From a virus, in IMG/VR virus record IMGVR_UViG_3300044638_005911, positions 1 to 28,548 of that record: a stretch of 28,548 nucleotides of DNA; one strand, given 5' to 3'. Position numbers and translations under genes: made by a program. Below are positions 7,170 to 27,239 of the stretch, one piece after another. Position 1 is the stretch's first letter. Each line of letters starts with the position of its first letter. Under the pieces are notes generated by a model. It had not been told where the DNA came from. It saw nothing but the letters and a program-made list of their open reading frames with translations, and made no database searches.

Positions 7170-7177
7170 TATTTATA
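7170..7177 (+). promoter_or_regulatory. Putative late promoter element TATTTATA
   Basis: TATTTATA followed by ATAAAAAAGG lies 13 nt before the ATG of the next structural gene. The same element at nearly the same distance precedes several minus-strand genes in this window. It marks the only gap larger than 20 nt in this part of the operon, consistent with a second transcription start inside the plus-strand run. Confidence 0.5.
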
Positions 7178-9080: not shown

Positions 9081-9542
9081 ATGAAAAAAATAGTTAAACT
9101 AACAGAATCCGATTTAAACAGACTTGTTGAAAAAGTTCTAAAAGAACAAGAAGTTGCTGATTATATGTTTTTTAGTAATCTACAACAAATTAAAAGACAA
9201 TGTGAAATATTGTTAGAAATGGACCCTCAACAAATTGACGAAATTATTAATGAAGGGGGACATGATTGGGCTGATGACCACGTAACTGAAGCTAAAAATA
9301 ATATGGACCAAGTATTCGATTTCTTAATGAACGAAACAAAAAAAGAATATATCGATTACGAAGATATTACAGAAGGTAGAAAGAAAACCGGAACTAAATT
9401 ATGTGCAAGAGGTATGGCATCCGCCAAAGCTAAATATGACGTGTACCCCTCAGCTTATGCAAATGGACATGCTATTCAAGTATGTAAAGGTAAAATAAAA
9501 GGACTTGATGGTAAAAAACATTGTTCAGGAGCATATTGTTAA
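9081..9542 (+). CDS. Protein with LTESDL leader and C-terminal Cys domain
   Basis: A 153-residue protein in two parts. Residues 1-23 (MKKIVKLTESDLNRLVEKVL then KEQ) form a short amphipathic leader; from memory, close variants of this leader occur at the start of many unrelated small proteins of Bacteroidota phages. The leader contains LTE|S and LKE|Q, both compatible with a gp21-type protease site. The middle is acidic and helical. Residues about 99-153 are a compact basic domain with YDVYPSAYAN and four cysteines (about 108, 135, 148 and 153), a cassette I have seen in T4-like phages and giant viruses without a known function. It is the last gene of the plus-strand run and is followed at once by a terminator. 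A packaged internal protein is a fair guess. Confidence 0.65.
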   Translation: MKKIVKLTESDLNRLVEKVLKEQEVADYMFFSNLQQIKRQCEILLEMDPQQIDEIINEGGHDWADDHVTEAKNNMDQVFDFLMNETKKEYIDYEDITEGRKKTGTKLCARGMASAKAKYDVYPSAYANGHAIQVCKGKIKGLDGKKHCSGAYC

Positions 9543-9548
9543 AAACTA

Positions 9549-9577
9549 AAAAAACCTTCAAACTTGGAGGTTTTTTT
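9549..9577 (+). terminator. Rho-independent terminator after the plus-strand structural run
   Basis: AAAACCTTC at 9551-9559 pairs with GGAGGTTTT at 9566-9574 (one T-G pair) around a 6-nt loop, and the stem runs into a T tract. It lies just past the stop codon at 9542 and upstream of the next promoter, so it closes the long structural transcript. Confidence 0.75.
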
Positions 9578-10070: not shown

Positions 10071-10757
10071 TTAATTTTTATATTGTTCCTTAATTATTTT
10101 GATGATTAAACCTCTTAACGATTCGTTTTGAGGTTTTTTTGGTTTATAACTAACCATTGTCGGTTTGTTACCTTTACCAATTTTAGGGTCTTTCTTTTCT
10201 TCTCTACGTTTTTGTGAACAAGCTGATTTTTTTTGACTATCACTCATTTTTCCCGCAACTCCGGTTGCCCGACATTTTGGATAACCTTTTGAATTTGCAT
10301 CAGGTCGACCACATGGTGGATGTTTTCCATCAACTTTACGACAAATATTAACCCAAGGTCCACTTGGTTGTTTAGACCCTTTAGGTTTTTTCTTTGTACC
10401 AAACCAAACCGCTAAATCTTCTCTTAATAAATCTTCTTTCAATGGTAATCCATCCATAGTTGGATTAACCGCAGAACCTTCTTCATCATTTTGTCCTCGG
10501 TAATCTTTCTTTTGTTTCATCAATAATTTAGATATTTTTATTGTTCTATTTTCAATTTCTTTTCGTTTTTGTGGAGTTTCTTTAAAATCACCATCTGCCT
10601 CTTCATACGCTAATTCCGCATTCGTATATTCGTACACATCATCAGTAAAAGGTCCTAATTGTTTTTTTTCCCAAATTTGAGGCGCTAATACTATTGGAAC
10701 TTTAATTGAACCTGAATTTCCGGAACTGGTTGCTTCACTAATCTTATTCTTTTTCAT
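10071..10757 (-). CDS. Cys-rich DUF5872-like protein with short N-terminal cleavage motif
   Basis: A 228-residue protein. The frame can be extended to a TTG at 10766, but the ATG at 10757 is better: it lies exactly 14 nt from a TATTTATA element, as in other genes here. The N-terminus MKKNKISEATSSGNSG contains ISE|A at residues 6-9, a good match to the T4 gp21 protease rule (L/I)xE|A. Residues about 130-200 hold a basic cysteine-rich domain (WVNICRKVDGKHPPCGRP and GYPKCRATGVAGKMSDSQKK, then CSQKRREEK), which resembles what I remember as DUF5872 of phages and large viruses; function unknown, possibly metal or nucleic acid binding. The C-terminus (SLRGLIIKIIKEQ) is an amphipathic helix. An internal capsid protein is plausible. 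Confidence 0.65.
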   Translation of the reverse strand: MKKNKISEATSSGNSGSIKVPIVLAPQIWEKKQLGPFTDDVYEYTNAELAYEEADGDFKETPQKRKEIENRTIKISKLLMKQKKDYRGQNDEEGSAVNPTMDGLPLKEDLLREDLAVWFGTKKKPKGSKQPSGPWVNICRKVDGKHPPCGRPDANSKGYPKCRATGVAGKMSDSQKKSACSQKRREEKKDPKIGKGNKPTMVSYKPKKPQNESLRGLIIKIIKEQYKN

Positions 10758-12024: not shown

Positions 12025-12297
12025 ATGAAAAAATTATTTATTACTTTAGTATTACTTGTTGGAACATTAACATTTTCTCAAACTAAACCAAAAACAAAAG
12101 ACATCGATAAGGATATCAATGTCTTATTAGATTCATTATCTAAAGTCTATAAAGTAAAAGTTGGTTCAGTTATTGTTGAGGATTATCCTAATTTAAGAGT
12201 CACGTCAATTGCCTATTATCAAAACGATGAATTAACCTACAAAGTTATTCAAACAGAAAAAAACCCAACAAAAAGAAATATATTTGGCAACTATTAA
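12025..12297 (+). CDS. Small exported protein (signal peptide)
   Basis: A 90-residue protein with a clear signal peptide: MKK, a hydrophobic core (LFITLVLLVGTLTF), then SQ, the usual Bacteroidota ending where cleavage leaves an N-terminal glutamine. The mature part, about 70 residues, is charged and mixed (DIDKDINVLLDSLSKVYKVK), with no cysteines or enzyme motif. It has its own host-type promoter and is therefore likely expressed without phage late factors. Its stop codon overlaps that of the convergent OmpA-like gene. A periplasmic or surface protein that alters the infected cell, for example in superinfection exclusion, is a reasonable hypothesis but is not shown by sequence. Confidence 0.65.
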   Translation: MKKLFITLVLLVGTLTFSQTKPKTKDIDKDINVLLDSLSKVYKVKVGSVIVEDYPNLRVTSIAYYQNDELTYKVIQTEKNPTKRNIFGNY

Positions 12298-13466
12298 ATA
12301 GTTTTATTACAGTTTGCGGTGACACTATATCCGGTTTTAATCTTATATGTTCCAATTGGTGAATAAACTTTAAGTCCTGATTCTCCAGAAGGTCCATTAA
12401 AATTTAAAGTTACTGGGCCTGTTTGTTGTGTATAAACAACAAATTCTTTAACACCTTGTTCACATAAACGTTTAAGGTCGTCTAATGGGTCACCAACTTC
12501 ATCATTTCCTCCACCAAAACTTTTTGTTGGGTCTATTAAAAGTTGTTTAAATAATTCTTCATAACTATTGGCAGTTATTTTAATAATTTTACTACCACTA
12601 ACCGATACATTATTTTTTAAATTAATAAGTGTTAATTGGTAAACATATAATGGAACCCATTTAAAATTTCTATATACATGAGCACGTGTTGTAACATATC
12701 CGGTGTCTTGAGTTATTACATTATTTTTATTAGTAACAATTAATCTATCAGGAATACTTCCGGTATCAAAAGTTATAACACCTTTACCAAATAATTTTTC
12801 ATTGGTTAACACATAATCATACCTTTCTTCACCTTGTCCTGCGTTTATTTTTCTACCGGGCCATTGACAAATATTTTGGGAATCCGAATCTCTAACCTCT
12901 CCAGTTCCTTTAATATCGAAATTAACAAATTGTTCCTGTTTGTATAATTTAATTAATTCAGGATTTTTACTGTCACCTTTAGTTTTATCATATGGTGTTT
13001 TACCTAAAACAACTTGGCTAACATCCTTAGGTCCTTCAATAATTAAAGTACCGTTTTCAATTAACTCAGGAAATATTTCTTGAAAATATTGTTTAACCGA
13101 ATTGGCTCTTGCCAAAGCTAAACTTCCTTTTTCTTCAAACCCTTTTGGATTTGTAACATTTGATTCTCCCGCACTAATGTTTACAATAAATTCGTTACCA
13201 CCACTTTTTTTAATAAATTCTTCAATTTTAGGTTTTAACGCAACAATGGAATTTTTAACAACATCAGATTGATATTCACCAAATTTAAATTGATTTCCAA
13301 TTTTTTGTTCTGGAAATACCGTATTATCAGATGATGTAGTTGTTTTAGTCACAATTGGTTGTACTGCTTGTTCTAAAGTTAAGTATTGTCTATTTGTTGC
13401 AGATTCATGAAGATTTAATATCCTATTTCTCTCATCTTCATCTATATTCCATGTTTGTTTAATCAT
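12294..13466 (-). CDS. OmpA-like domain protein with capsid-targeting-like leader
   Basis: A 390-residue protein. Residues 1-29 are a leader (MIKQTWNIDEDERNRILNLH, then ESATNRQYL) that is 24/29 identical to the leader of the next minus-strand gene at 15087, although the rest of the two proteins differs. It contains LHE21|S22, a match to the gp21 protease rule. Residues about 59-187 look like an OmpA-type domain: FKFGEYQSDVVKNSIVALKP, a strand (EFIVNISAGES), then SLALARANSVKQYFQEIFP, the usual RAxxV helix, and a closing strand (VNFDIKG). The rest (about 190-390) is beta-rich and unrecognised. There is no secretory signal peptide, so a peptidoglycan-binding domain here must reach the wall by another route, such as injection from the virion. 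Confidence 0.7.
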   Translation of the reverse strand: MIKQTWNIDEDERNRILNLHESATNRQYLTLEQAVQPIVTKTTTSSDNTVFPEQKIGNQFKFGEYQSDVVKNSIVALKPKIEEFIKKSGGNEFIVNISAGESNVTNPKGFEEKGSLALARANSVKQYFQEIFPELIENGTLIIEGPKDVSQVVLGKTPYDKTKGDSKNPELIKLYKQEQFVNFDIKGTGEVRDSDSQNICQWPGRKINAGQGEERYDYVLTNEKLFGKGVITFDTGSIPDRLIVTNKNNVITQDTGYVTTRAHVYRNFKWVPLYVYQLTLINLKNNVSVSGSKIIKITANSYEELFKQLLIDPTKSFGGGNDEVGDPLDDLKRLCEQGVKEFVVYTQQTGPVTLNFNGPSGESGLKVYSPIGTYKIKTGYSVTANCNKTI

Positions 13467-13480
13467 TTCAACTATTTTAT

Positions 13481-13488
13481 AATAAATA
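13481..13488 (-). promoter_or_regulatory. Putative late promoter element for the first OmpA-like gene
   Basis: The minus strand reads TATATTTATTATAAAA, with the 8-mer TATTTATT ending 14 nt before the ATG at 13466. Confidence 0.5.
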
Positions 13489-13949: not shown

Positions 13950-13981
13950 AAAAAAAAAGGGTCTATTAAGACCCTTTTTTT
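13950..13981. terminator. Bidirectional terminator between convergent genes
   Basis: GGGTC at 13959-13963 pairs with GACCC at 13970-13974 around a 6-nt loop; the stem is extended by an A tract on the left and a T tract on the right. It can end both the 13557 transcript and the minus-strand transcript that ends at 13981. Confidence 0.78.
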
Positions 13982-15087
13982 TATTGTTGTTGTTTCATTA
14001 TTTGAGGAAGTTTAATAATTAATCTTCTATTAGGTGCCGTTTGATTTTCATCTGTTACGTCAGGCCATTTTTTACCCTTAGCAAATTGGTCAGTTTCTCC
14101 AATACCTTTAGGTATAAAATTTAATTTAATTCCCGGTAAACTATTTTTAAGAAGTGAAGCAATTGTTTCTGCTCTTTTTTTAGATAAATCCATATTATAA
14201 TCTTTTCTTTTTTGACCTGTTTTAAGTTTACCTTCAGGGTCTTCATCGATAGATGCTGATGATATTACTTCTACATCTCCTGTAGCATCAGAATAATTAG
14301 TTTTAATTGATTTGATAAAATCTTTAAATTCTTGTTTAGCCTCATCTGTTAAATTAGTCTCATTAAATCTAAATGGACTTTCAATATTTAATTCAAATGG
14401 TATATCTGTTGGTATGTCTTCAGGTGTTTCAGGTGTAGGTTTATTTGAAAAATATTTAGCACTAACACCAGGAAACAATTGTATTAAAATTCCTTTATTA
14501 CCTTTTTTAACATACATTACTGGTGATATTGTATCATCTTCAGATTCTTCATACCTACCTTCTAATAAAGTTATATCCATCGCCACTATTTTTGCGGTAT
14601 AAACTGTTGGTACTCCAACTTTTGTTTTGTCAAGTGCATGTGGAAGTCTTTTGTCTGAGAATGGGGGTGACATAGCAATAAGTTTATATTCAACATTATT
14701 ATATTGCATAGGTCTAATACCTTGTGAGGATAACGAAGTTGCACCAATTTCATTCCAATATTCGTCAGTAATTTTAAAATTTAAACCCCAACCTTTATCG
14801 GAAATTAACTCCCCTGATTTATAATTAACTTTAAAATTATATAAATCACCACCTATATAAGTCCAAGGAGTCGCCTCTTTATTTTTTCTATCATCCCATA
14901 CTGAACAGTATAAGTAACCTTCGTTAATTTTAAAATATAGTGGAGTATTAACTATTTGATAATAAGAATCATCTATTACTTCTTCGTTTTCTTGTTCTGA
15001 TAAGTACAATCTTTTAGTTGCACTCTCATGAAGATTTAAAATTCTATTTTTTTCATCCTCATTTATATTCCAATTCTGTTTAATCAT
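13981..15087 (-). CDS. OmpA-like domain protein with capsid-targeting-like leader
   Basis: A 368-residue protein when started at the ATG at 15087. The frame is open back to 15159, but that stretch contains the terminator palindrome and the promoter-like element, and the 15087 start lines up exactly with that of its leader-sharing neighbour. Residues 1-29 (MIKQNWNINEDEKNRILNLH, then ESATKRLYL) form the shared leader with LHE21|S22. The middle (about 35-225) is unrecognised and strand-rich. Residues about 231-368 resemble a C-terminal OmpA domain: FRFNETNLTDEAKQEFKDFI, a strand (DVEVISSASID), MDLSKKRAETIASLLKN, then APNRRLIIKL, the usual NRRxxI ending. No signal peptide. Peptidoglycan binding is known for the family; where this protein acts is inference. 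Confidence 0.72.
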   Translation of the reverse strand: MIKQNWNINEDEKNRILNLHESATKRLYLSEQENEEVIDDSYYQIVNTPLYFKINEGYLYCSVWDDRKNKEATPWTYIGGDLYNFKVNYKSGELISDKGWGLNFKITDEYWNEIGATSLSSQGIRPMQYNNVEYKLIAMSPPFSDKRLPHALDKTKVGVPTVYTAKIVAMDITLLEGRYEESEDDTISPVMYVKKGNKGILIQLFPGVSAKYFSNKPTPETPEDIPTDIPFELNIESPFRFNETNLTDEAKQEFKDFIKSIKTNYSDATGDVEVISSASIDEDPEGKLKTGQKRKDYNMDLSKKRAETIASLLKNSLPGIKLNFIPKGIGETDQFAKGKKWPDVTDENQTAPNRRLIIKLPQIMKQQQ

Positions 15088-15101: not shown

Positions 15102-15109
15102 TATAAATA
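15102..15109 (-). promoter_or_regulatory. Putative late promoter element for the second OmpA-like gene
   Basis: The minus strand reads GTATTTATAGTAAAA, with the 8-mer TATTTATA ending 14 nt before the ATG at 15087. It is directly downstream of the terminator of the capsid gene, so it restarts transcription there. Confidence 0.55.
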
Positions 15110-15169: not shown

Positions 15170-17002
15170 TTATCTCAATTCTCTTAAGTCGAATGTTCTA
15201 ACACCATCAACTGTGATACGTCCGTAGAAACGGTTATTAACCATTTTCTTAGCGTAACGTGTCATAATACCTTTGATAGGTGTAAAGTTGAATGGGTTAT
15301 ACATTGTTGGAGTTAATTGTAATGGTACGTATGGTGCGTAGATATAACCTGTGTCTAACAATGATGTTCCTTTGTGTCCCATTAACACTTGGTTTGGTGG
15401 GAAGTAAGGGTCACGGTAAACTTGGTAACGTCCTGCAAGAGTACCAACTCTTTCAATACCCATGTTGTATTGGTCTTGCTCAGGAGAAGCGTTTGATACG
15501 TGGAAGTATTCTAAATCGTCAAAGATAGCTGAGATTTCAGAAGAAACTACAATCCAGTTCGCTCCACCTCTTAATGTAGATTTGTGGATTTGAGCAGAAA
15601 TTTGGTTAATCGCTGTGATAAGCGTTTGGTTCCAGTCTTTTTGAGTATAAGGAACTGCAGAAGACCCTAAACGTTTCCAACCATTGTAATCCCAACGTAA
15701 GTTCCATGCCGCACCTTTACGTAAATCTCTTAAGATTTCACGGTCGATTTCAGCCGCAACTTGCTCAGATAATAAAGCTGTTAATTCAGCTTCAGCATCG
15801 ATGTTGTGGAATGCAGCAACGTCTTGAGCCATTTCAGGAGACCATTGTGCTCTTAATTTTCTTTCTGTTACAGAAACAGTTACTGACATTAAGTCAAAAG
15901 AAACTTCACCGATTCTATCTTCAAACTCTAAGTTTCTGTAGATTCTATAACTTGCAACGAATGCGTTGTTAGTTTCTGTGTTACTTGAGAATGTTGAACC
16001 TGTGTAACCGTCCATTGAACCACCACAAGTAATACATACTGGTACTTGTAAATCAACCTCTAAGTAAATTTTTCCTTCAGCATCACATAAGTCGTCATAT
16101 TGACCACCACCTGTTTTACTTTCAGGGAATAATAAACTCTGGTTATTATTTCCGTACTCAACAATTCCTTTACCGTATCTTTGAGTCACAACTCTAAATA
16201 AGTAAGCGTTATTTGCATTTGCTGCAGTTGTTGGGTTTGTAGAAATACCTTTAATTGTTAAATCAGCTAAGAAAGATTCGTTATCCATTGGTTGACCATC
16301 AGGACCGATTAATTTACCTGCCCCATTACTTGCGAAACCTGACATAACAATTAATACTTTTCTATAATCAGATGTTCCATATCCTGAAACAACTAATTGG
16401 TCACCAGCCCATGCAACAGTAGAGACTTTAGTCCCATTAGTACTTAAATGTGTAACTGCTGAGAATTGTCCTTTTGAATAGTCATATAAACCTGGTGGGT
16501 CTAAAGCTGGTTCATTACCTTCATAGAATCTATCGTAAAGGTCTTTAGTGTTGTTGTAGTCGTAACCACTTCCTGGTCCATCAGGACCGTCAATTGCGTT
16601 ATCATACCCAGGTGCTCCGTAAGGTTTACGGTGAATACCATTAGTAGATGTTGAATCTTCAGTATACGCTTGAATGTTTGGTACGAAGTAGAATAATTTA
16701 CCAATTGGTAAGTTCATAGCTTGTACAGAAACGATGTCGTTAGATAATAATTTAGAGAATACTCTTCTAACAATTGGGAAAACCACTGTTTCAAATGCAC
16801 CTGTATCAGATGTAGATGATGCTTCGTTAATTAAATACGATGCTTGGTTTTCATATAATTGTGCAACGTTTTCTCTCATGTGACCTTTAAGACCCTCTAA
16901 GAATCCTAATTTGTCCCATTTGTTGATTGTGTCTTCTTTGATAACTTTAAGGTGTTTCAACCCGATGTTACCAACTAATCCTGATTCTAATAATGCTCCC
17001 AT
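15170..17002 (-). CDS. 23: Major capsid protein, T4 gp23-like
   Basis: A 610-residue protein, the main shell subunit (T4 gp23 is 521 residues). The N-terminal 60 residues are helical (KHLKVIKEDTINKWDKLGFL, ending SYLINE) and would be the prohead delta domain; L57-I-N-E60|A61 fits the gp21 cleavage rule and is close to the T4 site at 65. The next part (FPIVRRVFSKLLSNDIVSVQ, MNLPIGKLFYF) is the highly conserved gp23 core. Later, MAQDVAAFHNIDAEAELTAL and EIDREILRDLR are also gp23 signatures. A central region (about 110-330) rich in Gly, Asn and Asp is longer than in T4 and probably forms the inserted surface domain. It follows the scaffold gene by 41 nt and ends at a strong terminator, as expected for the most abundant product. 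Confidence 0.93.
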   Translation of the reverse strand: MGALLESGLVGNIGLKHLKVIKEDTINKWDKLGFLEGLKGHMRENVAQLYENQASYLINEASSTSDTGAFETVVFPIVRRVFSKLLSNDIVSVQAMNLPIGKLFYFVPNIQAYTEDSTSTNGIHRKPYGAPGYDNAIDGPDGPGSGYDYNNTKDLYDRFYEGNEPALDPPGLYDYSKGQFSAVTHLSTNGTKVSTVAWAGDQLVVSGYGTSDYRKVLIVMSGFASNGAGKLIGPDGQPMDNESFLADLTIKGISTNPTTAANANNAYLFRVVTQRYGKGIVEYGNNNQSLLFPESKTGGGQYDDLCDAEGKIYLEVDLQVPVCITCGGSMDGYTGSTFSSNTETNNAFVASYRIYRNLEFEDRIGEVSFDLMSVTVSVTERKLRAQWSPEMAQDVAAFHNIDAEAELTALLSEQVAAEIDREILRDLRKGAAWNLRWDYNGWKRLGSSAVPYTQKDWNQTLITAINQISAQIHKSTLRGGANWIVVSSEISAIFDDLEYFHVSNASPEQDQYNMGIERVGTLAGRYQVYRDPYFPPNQVLMGHKGTSLLDTGYIYAPYVPLQLTPTMYNPFNFTPIKGIMTRYAKKMVNNRFYGRITVDGVRTFDLRELR

Positions 17003-17043: not shown

Positions 17044-18624
17044 TTACCCTAATTTACTCATTAAATCTTTCATTCTCATGAATTGCGGATTTTCGTAAGT
17101 TTTTGATTCAATTAAAGTAGTCGATGAACCTGTAGATACTGTTTTTTGAATTCTGTTTTCTACTGATTCACTAAGTGATTTTTTAATTTCCGGTTTAGAT
17201 AATTCACCTTTAATTGACTGATAAAGATTTTTAGATTCTTTTAAAGTTTCAACATCGTCAAATCTTCTTAAGATATTAATTTTCTCTTTTTTAGTAGTCG
17301 AATGTTCAGTAAACAATCTAGTTGCATATGCCAAGTTTGAATTGAAGATTGCAACTTCGTTAAGTTTTTCTCTGAAAACATTTAACGCTTTTCTGTATTC
17401 TTCATTTTTTTCTCTTAACATAGTCACCTCTTGAGTAGATTCTACTTTTACTCCATTTTTACCGTAAACATAATTTCTGTTATTAGTAATCGCTTTTCTA
17501 AGTCCTCTACCTTCTTTGGAACCCATTCCGTATGTTCTAGCAGCTTCTTTTGTTTCTTCTTTTTCAAAAGCTTTTCTTTTTAAAGTATCACCTTTTTTAG
17601 TAGTGTAATCTTCTTTACCTTTCATGGTTTTAGATTTTTCACCCTTATTCATTCCGTAATCACCTTCTTTTGTTTCTGCCTTTACAACTTTGGATTTTCC
17701 TTCCATATTTCCACCCTCTTTGTATTCGAATTTAGCTTTACCTGTACCTACAGATTTTGGACCTTCTTTTTTATTTTCATCGAATCCACCACCGGCTTTA
17801 TCTTTGTAAGTAAATTTAGGTCCTGAGCCAACTATACCTTTAGGTTTAACTGTTGATTTTCCTTCTCTCACAGCTCTTCTTGGGTTGTAAGACTCTCCTA
17901 AGTCCTCTCCGTCCTCTAAGTCCACCATGTCTTCACCGTCTTCTTCGTCGATAAATTTTTCTTCTTCATCGTCTTCAAATACAATTTCGAACATAATTCC
18001 TTCAGAATCTTCAGAATCTTCGATATCGTCAACATCACCGTCAGCAAAAATTGCATCAATAACGTCATCAGTTGTTTGGTCATCCATTTCACCTAATTCT
18101 TCAAAATTAAATTCCGTGTCATCCATTTCTTCATCCATATTATACTCATAGATATCGTCTTCAGATTCACCAAGTTTAACTAAATACTCTTCATCAGTAT
18201 CATTATCAGTTAAGTGGATATCATCACCGTCTTTTTTTACAATGATTCCATCTTCTTCACCCATAGCTTTAAATACTTTCAGAATTTCTTCATCTGATGC
18301 ACCTGTTAAGTCGATTGGACTTTCGTCTGAATCCATGTCCATATCAAAATCCATTTCAATGTCCATTTCATCTTCGTCTTCATTATCAGCATCCATGTCA
18401 AAATCCATTTCCTCTTCATCAGAGTCCATTTCATCATCCATGTCAACATCTAATTCAACCTCATCATCTTCTAAATCTTGTTCAGAAAGAGATTCTTTTA
18501 CTAGCTGATTGATTTCTTCCTTCATAGTTGAAGCAAGTATTCCTTTTGCATTCTCGGCAATAGCTTCTTCAACTTGTCTCATTTGAATAAGCGCCTCTTG
18601 TACTAATTTGTTATTTTCTTGCAT
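17044..18624 (-). CDS. 22: Prohead scaffold protein, T4 gp22-like, with long acidic and basic tracts
   Basis: A 526-residue protein in the position of T4 gp22 (269 residues), directly upstream of gp23. It would form the internal core around which the shell grows and be degraded by the protease. The N-terminal 50 residues are helical (LIQMRQVEEAIAENAKGILA). Residues about 55-240 are extremely acidic (strings such as DVDMDDEMDSDEEEMDFDMD). Residues about 245-375 switch to Lys/Gly-rich sequence with short repeats around KFTYK and KFEYK. The final 130 residues (EEYRKALNVFREKLNEVAIF, NLAYATRLFTEHSTTKKEK) are the conserved helical gp22 part. Several L/IxE sites fit protease digestion. The charge-split insert is the unusual part. 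It is preceded by two terminators and its own promoter element. Confidence 0.82.
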   Translation of the reverse strand: MQENNKLVQEALIQMRQVEEAIAENAKGILASTMKEEINQLVKESLSEQDLEDDEVELDVDMDDEMDSDEEEMDFDMDADNEDEDEMDIEMDFDMDMDSDESPIDLTGASDEEILKVFKAMGEEDGIIVKKDGDDIHLTDNDTDEEYLVKLGESEDDIYEYNMDEEMDDTEFNFEELGEMDDQTTDDVIDAIFADGDVDDIEDSEDSEGIMFEIVFEDDEEEKFIDEEDGEDMVDLEDGEDLGESYNPRRAVREGKSTVKPKGIVGSGPKFTYKDKAGGGFDENKKEGPKSVGTGKAKFEYKEGGNMEGKSKVVKAETKEGDYGMNKGEKSKTMKGKEDYTTKKGDTLKRKAFEKEETKEAARTYGMGSKEGRGLRKAITNNRNYVYGKNGVKVESTQEVTMLREKNEEYRKALNVFREKLNEVAIFNSNLAYATRLFTEHSTTKKEKINILRRFDDVETLKESKNLYQSIKGELSKPEIKKSLSESVENRIQKTVSTGSSTTLIESKTYENPQFMRMKDLMSKLG

Positions 18625-18646: not shown

Positions 18647-18654
18647 TATAAATA
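18647..18654 (-). promoter_or_regulatory. Putative late promoter element for the scaffold-capsid unit
   Basis: The minus strand reads AATATTTATAATGAAAA, with TATTTATA ending 22 nt before the scaffold ATG. Two terminators just upstream mean that a promoter is needed here for scaffold and capsid expression. Confidence 0.5.
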
Positions 18655-18987: not shown

Positions 18988-19704
18988 TTATTTTCCTAAA
19001 AAGTCGTTTAATTTTTTCATTAAGTCAACTGACTTCTCTACATAATCGTCTTTTTGTTTATATTTTTTTTCTTCTTCAAGATTTTCTTCATACTTGTCTC
19101 TATCATCAGCATTTGTAAACAAATACGCTCCCGGTGTTGATGGTGATGATACTAAGTCAAAACAAATTAATTCAAAATCATCTTGAACTTCATTCCTTTC
19201 ACCAACTTTTTTAAGTGAACCAACCCCACGAGAAGAAATACCTAAAGTAACCCCTTGTCTCATTAAGTTTGCCGCTTGGTCTCCTTTGGTTGAAACAATT
19301 CCTCTTTCATGAAATCCCGGGGAAGTTAGCAATTTAAGTTTTCCCATTAATATGTTTCTGTCCCACCATACGTCAGTAATGATATGAGATACTCGGTCTA
19401 AATCAATTAAAGATGATTCAGGGTGATTTAACTCTGATGTTGATAACCCTTTTTCGATTGCAATTTTATAATTGTCGGCCTCTCTTTTTAATATCCTTTC
19501 AGGATATGTTCTACCGTTTCTATTAGGTGTGTCATATTTTTGTAAAACAGCATAAAATTCAAATGGGTTTCTATAATCCATTTCTTTCGCCTCTTTTAAA
19601 ACTTTTTCATTATGTTTGTCTTTTGGTGAAACCCAACCTGCGTCTGCCTCAACTAATATACCGTGTCCGGTTTCGGTTGCCTCTAATATTCTTAATTGTT
19701 TCAT
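18988..19704 (-). CDS. 21: Prohead protease, T4 gp21-like
   Basis: A 238-residue serine protease that matures the prohead by cutting scaffold and capsid proteins after glutamate. The conserved core is clear: FEFYAVLQKYDTPNRNGRTY at about 48-67, then ELNHPESS with the catalytic His94, a strand (ILMGKLKLLTSPGF) and GVTLGISSRGVGS with the catalytic Ser at 157 or 158; a downstream Asp lies in DFELICFDLVSSPSTPGA. This is the herpesvirus-assemblin-like fold shared by T4 gp21. The N-terminus MKQLRILEATETG contains ILE8|A9, a possible self-cleavage site. T4 gp21 is 212 residues, so the size fits. It has its own TATTTATC element 13 nt before the ATG and lies upstream of the scaffold gene, as in T4. 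Confidence 0.9.
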   Translation of the reverse strand: MKQLRILEATETGHGILVEADAGWVSPKDKHNEKVLKEAKEMDYRNPFEFYAVLQKYDTPNRNGRTYPERILKREADNYKIAIEKGLSTSELNHPESSLIDLDRVSHIITDVWWDRNILMGKLKLLTSPGFHERGIVSTKGDQAANLMRQGVTLGISSRGVGSLKKVGERNEVQDDFELICFDLVSSPSTPGAYLFTNADDRDKYEENLEEEKKYKQKDDYVEKSVDLMKKLNDFLGK

Positions 19705-19717
19705 TAATTCTTTTTAA

Positions 19718-19725
19718 GATAAATA
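19718..19725 (-). promoter_or_regulatory. Putative late promoter element for the protease gene
   Basis: The minus strand reads ATATATTTATCTTAAAA, with the 8-mer TATTTATC ending 13 nt before the ATG at 19704. Confidence 0.45.
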
Positions 19726-20316: not shown

Positions 20317-21015
20317 TTAAATAGATTCTTCTAAATTTTTAAGTTTTAAAAAATTCATTTGGTCAAACTTTTCATCTTTTAATCTATCGATAGTTTCAGA
20401 AATTTTTGTTTTTATTTCAGATTCTTGTTCAGTATCTAACATCCCTTTAAGTTTTGTGATTGTATTCTCACGTAAAGTCTCAAATTTAGTTTCAAGAGTT
20501 TTAGTGTCTTCAGATATTAATTGAAAAAATTCTTTTTTAGAGTTTTCATCTAAGTTTTCAATATATCCTCTTAATGTTTGGTTGGCAATACTAACCATCG
20601 ATTTAATTGGAATATTAATTGATTCTTTAACCGTTTCTTTTTTAGTAGTTAAAACTTTAATTATGTTCTTCTTAGCGTTTACTCTTTCAAGTAAATTTAA
20701 TTTGTTCGAATACGCCAATACATCTAAATCAGAATAATTATTTTTAATTGTTTCTGATAGACTTTTTGGTGATTTTATTGTTGGTAAAATTTTATGTAAT
20801 AAACTAATTCCTTCTTCTAAAAATTCTTTAGCATCCTGTTCAGATAAACCTTGAGGCGTACTTAATTGGTCATATAATGCATAAGCCTTTGACATAGATT
20901 TATTGTTCAGAACATTATGTTTGAACTCTCTTAAAGATTTTTTGAAATCTTTCTCGTCACTATATGACTCAAGTAGATTTTTTTCGATTATGGATTTTAG
21001 GTTTCCGAAGGTCAT
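20317..21015 (-). CDS. Putative prohead core protein (gp67/gp68 position)
   Basis: A 232-residue, almost wholly helical and highly charged protein. The N-terminus (MTFGNLKSIIEKNLLESYSD) carries LLE16|S17, compatible with cutting by the prohead protease; it is followed by EKDFKKSLREFKHNVLNNKS and a long helical region ending in coiled-coil-like sequence (TIDRLKDEKFDQMNFLKL). In T4 the small core genes 67 and 68 lie between the portal gene 20 and the protease gene 21; this gene holds that place. Composition and position both suit a scaffold-core component. Direct similarity to gp68 is only a remembered resemblance, so the call stays putative. Confidence 0.6.
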   Translation of the reverse strand: MTFGNLKSIIEKNLLESYSDEKDFKKSLREFKHNVLNNKSMSKAYALYDQLSTPQGLSEQDAKEFLEEGISLLHKILPTIKSPKSLSETIKNNYSDLDVLAYSNKLNLLERVNAKKNIIKVLTTKKETVKESINIPIKSMVSIANQTLRGYIENLDENSKKEFFQLISEDTKTLETKFETLRENTITKLKGMLDTEQESEIKTKISETIDRLKDEKFDQMNFLKLKNLEESI

Positions 21016-21040: not shown

Positions 21041-22903
21041 TTAGGAATTTAGTAACTTATCCAATTCTTTTGAAATTTCTCCTAAAGAATCTTGACCATG
21101 ACCTAAATTAATCATTTGAGCACCATCAATTAGGTTATTTTCAACTAACATATTTAAGTTATTCATTCGTGATTCCGGAGTTATTTCAGCCTCACCTCCC
21201 GCCGGTGGTGGTGCAACAGTTTCCTCACCCGCTGGCGGTAATTCTTCTCCTCCACCTAAATCAGCGGTTTCAAATCCACCTCCACCAAATGATGTCTCCG
21301 GTTCTGATGTTTCAGTAGCAGTTGCAGACGCAGTTCCTCCTGAAGTATTACCATAAAGTTTATCAATATTATCAAATAAACCTGTTTTAGTTATAACAGT
21401 CGCAGTTGCTTTAAGTTCTTCACCAACTGCTCTTTCAATTCTTTGTTGTTGTAAATCTAAACGAACCTCTTCGTCAGACCATCCAAATATATGTTTCTTA
21501 GCCCAAGTAGATGATGTTGCTTGAATACCATTTCCTGGGTCAGATACTAAATCTTTATACAATAACACTTTTTCTTTCCAAACATCAATTTTTAATAAAT
21601 CGGCTTGTGTTGAAGGGTTTGATAATCCTAATGTAAAATTATCTAATTCATCTTCAAACCCAAGTAAAAATAAATGTACAATCGCGATTTTATTTAATTC
21701 CGCAACCATACTTTTTTGGATTCGATTAATAGTTCTCGCAAAACGAATATCTTGTAATGATAAATTTTTACCATCTCCAACTACTTCTTCAAATCCTAAG
21801 AACGCCTTAGGAACACGAAGAGCGGTTAATAATTTCTTTTGGATGTATTCAATATCCGCAATCTCAGAAAGGTTTGTTGCTCCCGGTAATGTTGTAATAG
21901 GGTCCGGTGCTGATGGGTCTCTCACAGGAATAAAGTAATCTTGGTCAACCGCCATTTGATTAAACCTCATATCTACGTTACCTGTTTTATTATCAACTAC
22001 TTGTTCTCTTTTGAATTTGTTCGCAACACGTTGTACATACGCCTCAACATCATCATCGTTCATATTACCTACGAATACTTTAAACATTCTTCTCTCAGGT
22101 GCTCTTGATGTACGATAAATCAACATCGCATCCTCAGATAATAATAATTGTTTCCAAATACGTCTTGCTTTTTCTAACATAGACGTACCATAAGGAAGTT
22201 TTCGGTCGTCCCCTAATAATCTAAAGTGACCAATCTCCCATGATTGAAATTCCATGTTTTTATTCTTCCAAGTAAAATGAAGTGATTTTTTATCTTTATC
22301 CATTTCCTTAGTAATATCTGTTGAGATTTTTGCACTAACACCTACTTCATGACGTTCAATTTCAATGGTAGGTAATTGTTGTACACCAACAATACCCTTT
22401 TCAGGGTCTAATTTTAAATAAATAAAGTTATCACCATACTTACAAGTGTTTCTTGTCCACATTGGTAAGTTAGTGTTAATATCAAGTGAGTTATTAAATA
22501 AATCTGCTAATACTCCTTTTATTCTTTTTGATTCAGAATAAATTTGTAAAATAAAACCATCTTCATTTGTTGTTGTTGATTCTTCCGCGTAGATATCTAA
22601 TGCAGCCGAAATCTCAGGAGTATACTCCATTGACTCGTAATCATATTGTGCAGATAATCTTGATGGTTCGTAATAGATTGCTTGTGAATATAAATTATTC
22701 TCAACTTTCGCCCATTGGTTTGTTAAGTAAAAGGTTTGTTGTGCCTGTAACTTCTCTTTTTCGTATTCTTCCTTACTTTTGGTACGTAATAACTCCTTCT
22801 TATCAAACTTAAAAGTTGGATAATCTTGATTTAATAAAGAATTTGGCCCAAATGTTTGGGACAATCTCTGCCATACCGTCATATTATTTTGTTGTTCACT
22901 CAT
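21041..22903 (-). CDS. 20: Portal protein, T4 gp20-like
   Basis: A 620-residue protein that would form the dodecameric portal through which DNA is packaged. Typical gp20 features are present: YESMEYTPEISAALDIYAEE at about 88-107, then GDNFIYLKLDPEKGIVGVQQ, a long helical segment with ARRIWKQLLLSEDAMLIYRT and SRAPERRMFKVFVGN, and IEYIQKKLLTALRVPKAFLG. The length is greater than T4 gp20 (524) mainly because of a Gly/Pro/Glu/Thr-rich C-terminal extension (about 520-585, with stretches such as TSFGGGGFETADLGGGEELP) followed by a short helical end. The gene follows the terminase directly; the sheath and tube genes that separate these in T4 are missing here. It has an upstream TATTTATA element. Confidence 0.92.
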   Translation of the reverse strand: MSEQQNNMTVWQRLSQTFGPNSLLNQDYPTFKFDKKELLRTKSKEEYEKEKLQAQQTFYLTNQWAKVENNLYSQAIYYEPSRLSAQYDYESMEYTPEISAALDIYAEESTTTNEDGFILQIYSESKRIKGVLADLFNNSLDINTNLPMWTRNTCKYGDNFIYLKLDPEKGIVGVQQLPTIEIERHEVGVSAKISTDITKEMDKDKKSLHFTWKNKNMEFQSWEIGHFRLLGDDRKLPYGTSMLEKARRIWKQLLLSEDAMLIYRTSRAPERRMFKVFVGNMNDDDVEAYVQRVANKFKREQVVDNKTGNVDMRFNQMAVDQDYFIPVRDPSAPDPITTLPGATNLSEIADIEYIQKKLLTALRVPKAFLGFEEVVGDGKNLSLQDIRFARTINRIQKSMVAELNKIAIVHLFLLGFEDELDNFTLGLSNPSTQADLLKIDVWKEKVLLYKDLVSDPGNGIQATSSTWAKKHIFGWSDEEVRLDLQQQRIERAVGEELKATATVITKTGLFDNIDKLYGNTSGGTASATATETSEPETSFGGGGFETADLGGGEELPPAGEETVAPPPAGGEAEITPESRMNNLNMLVENNLIDGAQMINLGHGQDSLGEISKELDKLLNS

Positions 22904-22942: not shown

Positions 22943-24703
22943 TTACCCACCAAATAACCACCCATATTTTTGGTAATCTTCCCTAGTGGCTCCTTGGTTT
23001 ATTGGATGTTGTCTACCCATTTGAGGTACCATTGGATTAAAAAACTCAGATGAGTTTTTATTTTCATTTACCGCAGTAGACCAAGAATTTAACATTGCTC
23101 TGGTATGGTTGGTAACTTTTTCTAATGATTGGAATGATTTTTCCGCAACATATATTGCCATCGCAATACTCATAATACAGTCATCATGATGCATTTTTTG
23201 ATGGTCAGGTCGTCCATTAATGTAAACAAACGTATTCATTTCGTTATAAAGACGACTTGAATAAATTCTAAACTTATGTCTCATCGCTTCTTCAAACGCT
23301 GCAATAATCTGAACTCTTTTTGAATTAAAGTTAATTCCCGGGATTTTTTCATTTATTTTTGGGTCATACTTCCACTTATTGGTTGTATCAACACCATCAA
23401 CATATAATCCACCCTGATAGTTCATTTCTTGTAGTTTTCTTGCTGTTGAAACTCCCATACCACCTGTAATATCCACAACACAATAAGCACTATACATAGT
23501 ACCCCACTTATATGCAATCTCCGCTAAAATGTCCGGAGGAACTTTTCCAACATATTCTAACACCTGTTCTCTAGTATCAAAATCAATAATCTCAACACTT
23601 GAAAAATCTTCAGAATCACCACGAGATACATCACAACCCATAACATATTTATGTCCATTTTCCGGTTCTTTCCATATCCATAATCCACCACCCATCATTT
23701 TAGCCATTGGTTCTTTAACTTGATTTTTGGCAATGTCTTGCATCAAATCAGAATCAAATACGTTATCTCCGGAACCTAAGAAGTTACATTCTAACTCTTG
23801 AGCAACCTTACGTCTATCATATTTTAATTTTTTTACCATTCCTTCAAACCAAGCAGAACATGGCTTGTACCCATCTTCAATATATTTGGTTACAATTGAA
23901 TGGTCTCTTTCAAATGGATTAGTCATTGATAAGTCAATAATGACCTCATCAAGGTTATATTCTTCCCTATTTAATAAAAAGTGAACTAAATCGTGTGTTT
24001 TAACCATATACAAATCTTTTGTATATCGAGGGTCACGGTACCAAAACATTTCAGAAATTTTAAAGTCATTCATGTTTCTAAGTGACTGGTCATAAATTTC
24101 ATAATAAATTGCATCATAACCATTTGGTGTGGAAACTACAATTACTTTACCCCCGGTAGATAGGGATGCCATACACGCTGACCAAAAATCTCCGTCAGCC
24201 TCAATAAACGCCGCCTCATCAAAGATAAGAATAGTTGGGGTATAACCCCTCAATGCATCTCGAGATGTCGCAACTGCTTTTACCTCACACCCATTTGTTA
24301 GTTTAAAATGTCGTTGTGCATTTTTTTCGTTTGAAAAACCTACTCCAACCCAACTAGGCCATTGTTCGGTAAAACTTCTAATTTTATTTGCCATCTCCAT
24401 GGACGTATCCAATTTATTGGCGATGATTAGAATTTTTTCAGGCTTAGTTTTTTTTGCAAATACAAGTTTTTTAGATGCCCAAGCAGCTGTCACAGTAGAT
24501 ACACCTGCCTGTCTGTACTTAAGGGCAATATTTTCATTGTATTTATCGTAATCCTCAATCAAGGATACTTGGTCGGGGAATAAATCTAACGGTACGTATT
24601 TTGATACCGTATTATCGTATGTCTGTAAATAAGTACGAAGTGCGTAGGGTGTATTCCTCATGCACTTCGTTATCTCAATTATTAATTGTTCTTTATTATT
24701 CAA
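22943..24703 (-). CDS. 17: Terminase large subunit, T4 gp17-like
   Basis: A 586-residue packaging motor and headful nuclease, close to T4 gp17 in length (610). The ATPase half has a deviant Walker A, YRQAGVST at residues 63-70, in which the lysine of T4 SRQLGKTT is replaced by valine; Walker B is TILIFDEAA with D162 and E163; the coupling motif VVSTPNG is at about 185-191. The nuclease half shows the acidic triad pattern: GCDVSRGDSEDF at about 355-366, VVDITGGMGV, and HHDDCIMSIAMAIYVAE near the end. The gene begins 13 nt after an acidic gene and lies 39 nt before the portal gene. No small terminase was recognised in the window. Confidence 0.93.
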   Translation of the reverse strand: MNNKEQLIIEITKCMRNTPYALRTYLQTYDNTVSKYVPLDLFPDQVSLIEDYDKYNENIALKYRQAGVSTVTAAWASKKLVFAKKTKPEKILIIANKLDTSMEMANKIRSFTEQWPSWVGVGFSNEKNAQRHFKLTNGCEVKAVATSRDALRGYTPTILIFDEAAFIEADGDFWSACMASLSTGGKVIVVSTPNGYDAIYYEIYDQSLRNMNDFKISEMFWYRDPRYTKDLYMVKTHDLVHFLLNREEYNLDEVIIDLSMTNPFERDHSIVTKYIEDGYKPCSAWFEGMVKKLKYDRRKVAQELECNFLGSGDNVFDSDLMQDIAKNQVKEPMAKMMGGGLWIWKEPENGHKYVMGCDVSRGDSEDFSSVEIIDFDTREQVLEYVGKVPPDILAEIAYKWGTMYSAYCVVDITGGMGVSTARKLQEMNYQGGLYVDGVDTTNKWKYDPKINEKIPGINFNSKRVQIIAAFEEAMRHKFRIYSSRLYNEMNTFVYINGRPDHQKMHHDDCIMSIAMAIYVAEKSFQSLEKVTNHTRAMLNSWSTAVNENKNSSEFFNPMVPQMGRQHPINQGATREDYQKYGWLFGG

Positions 24704-26017: not shown

Positions 26018-26854
26018 TTATTTTTCTAAGATTTGCATAATCACATCCATAATTTTGTCTTTAGACTCCTCAGGTGATGGTCTATTAGCCTTCGGTGCCG
26101 GATTAGTTCCCGGATTTGGATTCTTACCAGGATGATTTGGTCTTGTACCAGGTTTTGTTGTCGGTTTTGTTCTCGTCGGTGCGGTCTCAGTACCTGCCTC
26201 GTTTAAATAATTCATAAGTTCCTTTTTAGTTATTTTTGGTGGTAAATTTCTTTCCACAATTTTAATAATTTCATTCTCAAGGAACAAAGATACGGGATTT
26301 TTTTGTTCTTTCAAAGATTTTTTTACATCCTTAACGCATCTCTCATATTTATTATTTTCTTTAGCACTCCATAAGTGTCTTTCTCTAGTACCAAATTCTT
26401 TACCTAATTGTGATGTACAAATGGCCCATGGATTATCTTCATCTTTTTTAGACTTCTTTTTCTCTTCGGACATACCAATCATTTTACTATCGTGATTTTC
26501 AGGTGAAGTGTCATCGTCCATCCCATCATCAGACGCTTGATATTCGTCATGAGAACCTTGTTGCCCTGTATATGCTTGGTCAGCGTCTAAATCAAAATCA
26601 TCATCTTCAGACATTTCAGATTCTGTTGCTGTAACCATAACTTCTTTAGTGTTTGGGTCTTGTGTAATATTTAAATTACCAACCTTACCACCTGATGGAC
26701 CTACTTTATAAGTTTTTTTAGCAGGAACTTCGGTTACTTGTTCATTAACAAGTTTACTATGTAATACATTAATTTGCGATTCTGTTAATTTCCCAACAGT
26801 TTTTGAGGATAACCCTTTTTCGATAAGTTCTAATGCTTTAATATTAATTTTCAT
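26018..26854 (-). CDS. Protein with acidic middle and Cys-containing PWAIC/KYERC cassette
   Basis: A 278-residue protein if started at the ATG at 26854, which leaves an 11-nt overlap with the preceding gene; the ATG at 26872 would add six residues and lengthen the overlap. The N-terminus is helical (MKINIKALELIEKGLSSKTV, then GKLTESQINVLHSKLV), partly like the LTESDL leader seen elsewhere. An acidic segment follows. Residues about 140-185 hold NPWAICTSQLGKEFGT and NNKYERCVKDVKKSLKE, a two-cysteine cassette I recall from many T4-like and uncultured phages, function unknown. The C-terminal 70 residues are a Pro/Thr/Lys/Asn-rich linker ending in a helix. Its position among head genes suggests a core or internal protein. 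Confidence 0.65.
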   Translation of the reverse strand: MKINIKALELIEKGLSSKTVGKLTESQINVLHSKLVNEQVTEVPAKKTYKVGPSGGKVGNLNITQDPNTKEVMVTATESEMSEDDDFDLDADQAYTGQQGSHDEYQASDDGMDDDTSPENHDSKMIGMSEEKKKSKKDEDNPWAICTSQLGKEFGTRERHLWSAKENNKYERCVKDVKKSLKEQKNPVSLFLENEIIKIVERNLPPKITKKELMNYLNEAGTETAPTRTKPTTKPGTRPNHPGKNPNPGTNPAPKANRPSPEESKDKIMDVIMQILEK

Positions 26855-27239
26855 AAATAACTTTCTTTTCAAATTCTAATACCAAATCTCTTTCGTATAG
26901 TTTGTCTTTTATTTCTTGTTCCGGAACTCCAAATCTAAATACCATTCTTTTCTTAATGTTTTCGTCATCAGTTTCCCATGCTAATGCAATTATGTCATCC
27001 ATTGCATCCATCACTGAAAAAAAATCGGAGTTTTGAATCAATTCCAATTTTACATCAGTATCTCTCAAAACTCCTACTTTTTTAATATATTTTAAATCGG
27101 GTGGTTGAGGATATCCATTAGATGGTCGATTATCCCACGATTCACCCCACACGTCTAAAGTGTCCGAGAATACGAATTCGTAAAGATTATCCCCTTTATA
27201 GTTAGGACCTAAACCATTTACGTAAATCAAATAACTCAT
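26844..27239 (-). CDS. Conserved-looking small protein of unknown function
   Basis: A 131-residue acidic protein. Its start ATG overlaps the stop of the preceding gene in an ATGA junction, and its end overlaps the next start, so it is translationally coupled on both sides. The first part (YLIYVNGLGPNYKGDNLYEF, then VFSDTLDVWGESWDNRPSNG) is strand- and turn-rich with several aromatic residues; the second (VMDAMDDIIALAWETDDENI) is helical. I recall similar proteins at this place in other T4-like phages of Bacteroidota, but no function. No signal peptide or metal-binding motif is visible. Confidence 0.7.
   Translation of the reverse strand: MSYLIYVNGLGPNYKGDNLYEFVFSDTLDVWGESWDNRPSNGYPQPPDLKYIKKVGVLRDTDVKLELIQNSDFFSVMDAMDDIIALAWETDDENIKKRMVFRFGVPEQEIKDKLYERDLVLEFEKKVIYEN

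Follow-up and report, generated by a model that had tools for sequence, protein, structure and literature searches.

A modular N-terminal leader ending at a gp21-type site as a probable capsid-targeting propeptide in T4-like phages

In phage T4, the prohead protease gp21 cleaves after L/I-x-E, and the internal proteins carry a capsid targeting sequence (CTS) of 10-19 residues, which directs them to the core before it is cleaved off (PMC9026906). The same paper reports that IPIII with D at its position 10 still reaches its target but escapes cleavage. According to PMC5694885, the gp23 propeptide has 65 residues and Alt is cleaved at ITE-6 and LTE-619; Ip1-3 have only their leader in common and block restriction enzymes after injection, as described in PMC12373910. 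We analysed an IMG/VR virus record (IMGVR_UViG_3300044638_005911) of 28,548 bases that bears a T4-type head region; this whole stretch is called the window below. The gene at 9081 starts with a leader that, judged from sequence comparisons, is probably a capsid-targeting propeptide, CTS-like in function and with no detectable sequence kinship to the T4 CTS.

An earlier note on this DNA had described the beginning of the 9081 ORF as an LTESDL-type leader on a Cys-domain protein, resembling a start common to many unrelated short proteins of Bacteroidota phages, at 9081-9150. The description was borne out: the start of this ORF (153 aa), MKKIVKLTESDLNRLVEKVLKEQ, occupies 9081-9149, the coordinates are correct with the leader proper stopping at E22 (9146), and the leader was found in 103 body clusters among the matches listed. 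The gene and its surroundings contain the following features.

7170 to 7176, plus strand: TATTTAT promoter-like element, upstream of the 7191 gene, the first in the gene run 7191-8696-9081
9081 to 9146, plus strand: leader type 1, residues 1-22 (MKKIVKLTESDLNRLVEKVLKE); conservation in 103 body clusters ends after residue 22
9081 to 9542, plus strand: tagged 153-aa protein, with the leader, then an MFFSNL helical domain, then a Cys-rich YPSAYANG domain (phrog_27331)
9550 to 9577, plus strand: terminator-like hairpin with a T run, 3' of the tagged gene, seen in the sequence by eye and unscored

Across the 9081 protein and eight orthologs, the leader residues M1, L12, V19 and E22 are invariant. 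The fold prediction for this protein (pLDDT 52.7) is usable only for a helix at 9-22. Its Cys-rich domain (window 9390-9540) has further matches in phages of Pelagibacter, Prochlorococcus and Synechococcus. In a 642-kb uncultured phage (LR756502; L153:7727-8201), the MFFSNL body follows another start, MENIKSFDSFNE, similar in form to the T4 CTS.

A degenerate DNA pattern for leader residues 1-12 was used to scan IMG/VR and matched at least 120 stretches, with 0 matches there for 2 scrambled-order versions; in 257 Gb of bacterial and archaeal genomes the pattern matched 2 contigs only. Among the matches listed (120 stretches), we found 152 proteins with the type 1 start, or 141 after dropping identical bodies, and BLASTP of the bodies (E 1e-3) placed these 141, again among the matches listed, in 103 unrelated clusters. 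The leader is modular, and it ends sharply at a gp21-type site. Beyond the patterned residues, R14, I15, V16, R18, V19, I20 and E22 are also conserved, with 13, 17 and 21 looser, and the information falls from 3.5 bits at residue 22 to 1.3 at 23 and 0.4 at 24. The motif [I/L]-x-E occupies residues 20-22 in 94 of 103 clusters versus 21/3379 at positions 27-59; of the nine exceptions, five have VxE or MxE, three have [IL]xE four residues later and one is without it. A local profile added 64 distinct proteins outside the pattern, all 64 with LxE or IxE at 7-9 (middle residue T, S, N, K or D) and 60 with [ILVM]xE at 20-22, matches of a kind that the profile favours; by itself the type 1 profile gave 4 to 15 matches apiece in 13 large records. 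On these grounds, removal of the leader of the 9081 protein is predicted after E22, with a possible second site after LTE (residues 7-9). Two ORFs (L103:4550 and L003:671) carry the leader at the start plus a second leader-like copy internally, and look as if two tagged proteins had been fused with a cut site between them.

A tblastn search of 50,697 phage records found no isolate with the leader, the 23-mer query being insensitive at that length, and no match for a 506-aa tagged protein, a type 2 protein or the candidate scaffold described below. Among the closest relatives by capsid that were compared, immuto, Mel-JY01, RM378 and two uncultured records are without the leader; LR756502, chosen for its MFFSNL body, is also without it. 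We found no description of this leader in the literature covered, which excluded most subscription papers and all bioRxiv preprints. Counted over all ORFs, N-terminal [IL]xE is in strong excess in one large record (G007, 111/253 vs 70 and 60 in body windows) and not in another (G009, 80/268 vs 68 and 81). The leaderless immuto and T4 also show a moderate excess (53/146 vs 35 and 38, and 51/158 vs 39 and 32, respectively), and therefore we dropped this whole-proteome excess as evidence.

Type 1 is accompanied by further leader types. Type 2, with the consensus (I)-x-E-(D/E)E(K/R)NRILNLHE(S/T)ATKxxYLxE, stands on two proteins of the window.

13371 to 13466, minus strand: leader type 2 (MIKQTWNIDEDERNRILNLHE.SATNRQYLTLE) on the protein at 12294-13466; LHE conforms to [I/L]-x-E, the terminal TLE does not
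14995 to 15087, minus strand: leader type 2 (MIKQNWNINEDEKNRILNLHE.SATKRLYLSE) on the OmpA-domain protein 13981-15087

The start of the latter protein was set at 15087 because a TATTTAT element falls inside the longer ORF. Type 2 matched 97 stretches and lies about 10 residues past the nearest Met; in 54 of 62 distinct sequences, [ILVM]xE follows LHE within 15 residues, and conservation ends about there. Its bodies are less varied, with 92 proteins in 10 clusters. Type 3 (MNLQENIRRI...) matched at least 120 stretches and comprised 107 distinct proteins over all loci, in 56 clusters; 53 of these clusters have [ILVM]xE somewhere between residues 11 and 30, with 13, 18 or 19 as its usual last residue, a count taken without a chance control. 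Also common is a fourth start, MKxIITESQ, defined by pattern only. The Alt cut tripeptides ITE and LTE recur in leaders of type 4 and type 1, respectively. Simple patterns, which include some false matches and miss variants, marked 36/326 ORFs in G007 (292 kb) and 26/333 in G009 (322 kb) as tagged proteins, and 1/205 ORFs in immuto and 2/224 in T4, each over about 150 kb.

Leaders are exchanged at the gp21-type site. The exchange screen compared bodies across loci in 80 rows, many of them type 1 variants or bodies lying downstream in another protein, and only the clear exchanges among these rows were counted. In these cases, homologous bodies bear different leaders, and the junction falls at the E of the [I/L]-x-E motif or up to three residues away. 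Exact junctions were found for MKKIIRLTESDLTRIVNRVINE.NQEEVDRILDK (VINE.N) versus MKYLITESQYEILLE.NQNYVDSLLDK versus MKIIITESQYRFLVE.NTQEIDQILEK (...FLVE.N), for ...KRVLKE.EVTE versus MGNKLRKIVRGVLME.SLTE, and for a 500-aa family versus MSIKNIIKNMVLE.QSEE, where M1 and E22 are the sole invariant leader columns. Junctions within 1-3 residues join type 1 ...RRVISE.QAKK and type 2 ...NVISE.QNSQ, ...KRVLKE.EVTE and MKSLIRKILKE.EYTP, and the window protein VLKE.Q and MKNLDRLIKQVLRE.D. Two orthologs of the window protein (L156 and L159) are without leader residues 2-9 and retain the helix and VL/VI-x-E; L153, also related to the window body, lacks an [I/L]-x-E-type motif at the junction, which counts against the capsid-targeting reading. 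A DHH-like protein starts with MKMVITESQYKRLLNE.SGIR in one genome and with MKKLINE.SGIR in another.

These junctions bear on a different reading, in which the leader would be a virion tag for tail, baseplate or neck, or an uncleaved core anchor, and [I/L]-x-E would merely cap an uncut helix. The predicted leader helix does end at residue 20-22, at low confidence, and the promoter-like element discussed below stands on baseplate and fibre-like genes besides head genes. We nevertheless regard this reading as unlikely: differing leaders adjoin homologous bodies directly at the E of the motif or beside it, a helix cap has no need for I or L two residues ahead of the E, the major capsid protein and the portal-adjoining protein bear the same kind of site, and T4 gp21 cleaves the tripeptides LTE and ITE.

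The T4-type head region of the window comprises the following features, all on the minus strand.

15170 to 17002, minus strand: gp23-like major capsid protein (PF07068, E=6.4e-70)
16823 to 17002, minus strand: predicted 60-aa propeptide of this capsid protein, ending YLINE.A
17044 to 18624, minus strand: acidic candidate scaffold/core protein that includes INQLVKESLSE.Q; adjoins capsid protein and protease genes, with orthologs
18988 to 19704, minus strand: S77 prohead protease, gp21-like (PF03420, E=1.7e-21)
20968 to 21015, minus strand: N-terminus MTFGNLKSIIEKNLLE of the protein adjoining the portal, a candidate core protein with an LLE.S site
21041 to 22903, minus strand: portal protein, gp20-like, from gene order and size; the PF07230 scan covered related records
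22943 to 24703, minus strand: large terminase, gp17-like, from gene order and size; the PF03237 scan covered related records

The portal- and terminase-sized genes are arranged as in T4. The S77 protease is presumed to be the leader peptidase; the S77 proteins of the leader group aligned with T4 gp21 at H85 and S140, which we take to be its catalytic residues. The candidate scaffold gave no family match. It contains EEINQLVKESLSEQ, by eye close in form to the leader helix, although the score matrix does not single this segment out; a docking helix common to both is possible. The closest capsid proteins in the phage collection, with Flavobacterium phage immuto among them, are 42-45% identical, and one leader was located in a Bacteroidota MAG; the host may be a bacterium of this phylum.

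The leader co-occurs with S77 and gp23. We tested 40 leader records, mostly the longer ones, out of 80 stretches listed: S77 was present in 21, gp23 in the identical 21, the T4 portal in 20 of those, and terminase in 20 of the 21 and also in G032. In G032 the terminase match lies 1.2 kb from the record end, before the portal would come, with no space for the remaining head genes; in G036, S77 is 4.6 kb from the record end and stands without a terminase or portal match. The other 18 records without S77, two of them of 214 and 274 kb, matched none of the four head genes and may therefore be fragments. S77 was present in 10 of 12 leader records of at least 140 kb, and the absence of all four head genes from the remaining two fits missing regions and does not prove them. 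Sixteen records were found by type 2, some of which look like near copies; 15 had type 1 and 13 had S77. S77 was absent from the Bacteroidota MAG with one leader match; in an Alphaproteobacteria MAG, a single contig carried both S77 and a leader match.

As a control, S77 was found in 1/26 random contigs versus the 21/40 leader records. The single leader match in these 26 contigs was weak and lay in an ORF adjoining that S77 gene (MKSSELKELIKQVIKE.ES), plausibly a core protein. Beside S77 in an S77-encoding contig other than the window, the ORF L154:3016-3306 starts MKSSELKELIKQVIKEES, a leader-like helix, and is likely a core protein. At matched length (35-75 kb), S77 occurred in 4/15 records with the leader versus 1/10 controls, which is not significant; therefore we put the weight on the agreement among S77, gp23, portal and terminase. 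The Bacteroidota phages crAss001, phi38:1, phi14:2 and phi13:2 had neither S77 nor leader. The leader profile gave no match in T4, PTm1, immuto, Mel-JY01 and RM378, all of which have S77; since T4, immuto and PTm1 have S77 without the leader, S77 phages do not require it, and the tie is one-way. On the question raised in the note, whether leader matches are limited to phages with gp21, the 21 records with S77 and the four leaderless, S77-less Bacteroidota phages agree with such a limit; 19/40 leader records, 3/16 type 2 records and the Bacteroidota MAG show no S77, and 18 of these 19 leader records matched none of the four head genes. The broader idea of a leader family with a common function such as capsid targeting was supported by the gp21-motif end and by the co-occurrence with S77 and gp23.

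Leader-like segments also occur elsewhere in the window, at the following positions.

26741 to 26803, minus strand: leader-like segment (KTVGKLTESQINVLHSKLVNE) in protein 26018-26854, score equalled in 0/2000 shuffles
10086 to 10127, minus strand: C-terminal leader-like helix (NESLRGLIIKIIKE) in protein 10071-10757, with a conserved end

The first had been noticed as a partial echo in the 26854 protein, which was supported: the best-scoring segment under a 22-column score matrix is KTVGKLTESQINVLHSKLVNEQ, and none of 2000 shuffles of the protein reached its score. Its spacing matches that of the leader and it ends VNE.Q; its orthologs vary (MTDSQVDVLFSKLQEQ). The other supposed echo, VVKLTETIEQEL in the 27236-28537 protein, did not hold up and is put down to chance: 10/400 shuffles scored equally high, the helical half misfits, and the segment sits about 35-55 residues from the C-terminus. 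As for protein 10071-10757, the matrix score of NESLRGLIIKIIKE alone is not strong, being reached by 81/2000 shuffles; the protein begins with KISE.AT and finishes in a conserved SLRGLIIKIIKE.Q. Its distant orthologs (L156/L159) have the helix at the N-terminus instead (MIERTIKNILKE.ATS), and therefore either end of a protein can probably hold the tag helix. The C-terminal half of this protein matches phrog_23735 (unknown function).

Regarding the cargo, a Pfam match was obtained for 1/81 type 1 proteins (DUF6576), and PHROGs gave 2 unnamed families with one member each for the same 81. For 44 proteins of types 2-4, Pfam returned LysM (3), lysozyme, GH19, peptidoglycan-binding, DHH, GNAT, pterin dehydratase and, more weakly, a few other names, and one type 3 protein was P-loop kinase-like. 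Some type 2 and type 4 proteins are OmpA-, LysM- or lysozyme-type (window 13981-15087; L213, L270), suggesting cargo whose target may be the cell wall, during entry or lysis. The lysozyme- or kinase-like proteins could act elsewhere, which counts against capsid targeting. The model of the 506-aa tagged protein has a mean pLDDT of 81.6, and its sole stretch of at least 3 residues below 50 is 1-23, the leader; a fold search gave no solved relative (best E 0.34) and one uncharacterised viral relative.

Leader genes share a promoter-like element with head genes. The 7-mer TATTTAT is common upstream of type 1 genes, mostly 21-26 bases before the start, and in the window it was found at the following positions.

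7170-7176, 13482-13488, 15103-15109, 18648-18654 and 19719-19725: TATTTAT elements; many structural genes have one some 20-30 bases ahead of them

The window genes that follow the element are those of scaffold, protease and portal, the 20317 gene, the two with type 2 leaders and the 7191 gene. In G007 and G009 it lies within 32 bp upstream of 165/659 ORFs, for which shuffling predicts 3.4%; five comparison 7-mers, three of which overlap TATTTAT, had 32 to 88 occurrences. By class, these two records have it on 16/21 type 1, 2/4 type 2, 4/8 type 3 and 19/29 type 4 genes and on 124/597 other ORFs. Over all loci, it precedes 91/151 type 1 genes, 34/34 type 2 genes (the MIKQ form only, as the MKNLF-form pattern matched nothing), 14/15 scaffold genes, 30/107 type 3 genes and 0/27 major capsid protein genes. 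Its absence from the capsid protein genes and the incomplete type 2 and type 3 counts in G007 and G009 weigh against the capsid-targeting reading. Genes like T4 or immuto structural genes have it in 8/15 cases versus 3/22 for replication or metabolism, in categories set by hand, and type 1 differs from replication genes with Fisher P 4.8e-5. The element is common to leader genes and to scaffold, protease, baseplate and fibre-like genes, and may be a late promoter; its reverse complement resembles the T4 late promoter.

This distribution also weighs on the reading that the leader is an intracellular tag by which proteins dock on a complex of phage or host (replication compartment, membrane or polymerase) with no virion role, which we consider very unlikely. 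The helix is basic and amphipathic, as such a tag might be, and the DHH, P-loop kinase, GNAT and pterin dehydratase bodies of types 2-4 are enzyme-like; but an enzyme (Alt) and inhibitors make up the internal proteins of T4 too, the element is shared with structural genes and present on only 3/22 replication or metabolism genes, and the leader agrees with the S77/gp23 records and is absent from the four S77-less Bacteroidota phages. Conservation of DNA or RNA instead of peptide, as in a translation enhancer or a recombination hot spot at gene starts, would explain why nearly all copies stand at gene starts and leaders are swapped between genes, but it is highly improbable, since codons vary freely while residues are kept (five codons at Leu7, several at Ile15 and Val19), which places conservation in the peptide and speaks against the DNA level, and since one family has a like helix at its C-terminus and two ORFs have an internal copy.

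For the capsid-targeting propeptide, we propose the following course. A phage protein made late would carry the N-terminal tag MKKIIRLTE-SDLTRIVKRVIxE, whose amphipathic helix (residues 10-22) may bind the prohead core, and the tagged protein would be enclosed as the gp23 shell assembles. The S77 protease (18988-19704) would then cut after [I/L]-x-E at residue 22, with a probable further cut after LTE (residue 9), and the mature protein would be released inside the head and ejected with the DNA. The protein encoded at 9081 would be an example. A wider reading, which we favour with less assurance, is that a large, mostly uncultured T4-like group loads dozens of proteins per genome into the head through a few interchangeable, protease-removed tags, and that the tag points to an otherwise concealed repertoire of injected proteins for host takeover and counter-defence, several times larger than that of T4; because 80/81 type 1 cargo families are without a Pfam match, the tag would flag this repertoire from sequence alone. 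If so, a short motif reveals which phage proteins enter the host alongside the DNA; in T4, proteins of this class act against restriction enzymes and modify RNA polymerase. Roughly a hundred protein families that had gone unrecognised would become testable candidates, a packaging tag would be on offer for T4-like phages of other hosts, and tagged internal proteins could be a main feature of such genomes.

Compared with known systems, the leader resembles the T4 CTS (IPI-IPIII, Alt) in being a short N-terminal segment on unrelated bodies (152 proteins, 141 distinct, 103 clusters, among the matches listed) that ends at an L/I-x-E site of S77 (94/103 clusters), and the leader phages have the gp20, gp21 and gp23 types, with S77 and gp23 encoded in the window and in 21/40 leader records, the other 19 having neither. 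T4 gp24 starts MAKINELLRE.S and IPIII starts MKTYQEFIAE.A. The leader differs from the T4 CTS in length, with 22 residues instead of 10-19 (14-residue orthologous forms occur in L156 and L159), in its amphipathic basic helix flanked by two candidate sites, in its several interchangeable types, and in sequence, its profile having no match in the T4 record. Position, motif and gene context fit and length and sequence do not, so we regard it as CTS-like in its action without classing it as a homologue. The C-terminal end IIKIIKE.Q of the 10071 protein recalls Alt, which is cut at LTE-619 near its C-terminus, whereas here a like helix stands at either end in different orthologs. The giant phages phiKZ and SPN3US likewise possess several head proteins whose N-terminal propeptides are cleaved by a relative of gp21, in some cases at more than one site; the SPN3US propeptides are mostly >100 residues with the site A-x-E, and phiKZ has S/A/G-x-E, unlike the leader of about 22 residues with I/L-x-E. 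By pattern, a large leader genome has about 26-36 tagged proteins, versus the three IPs and Alt of T4.
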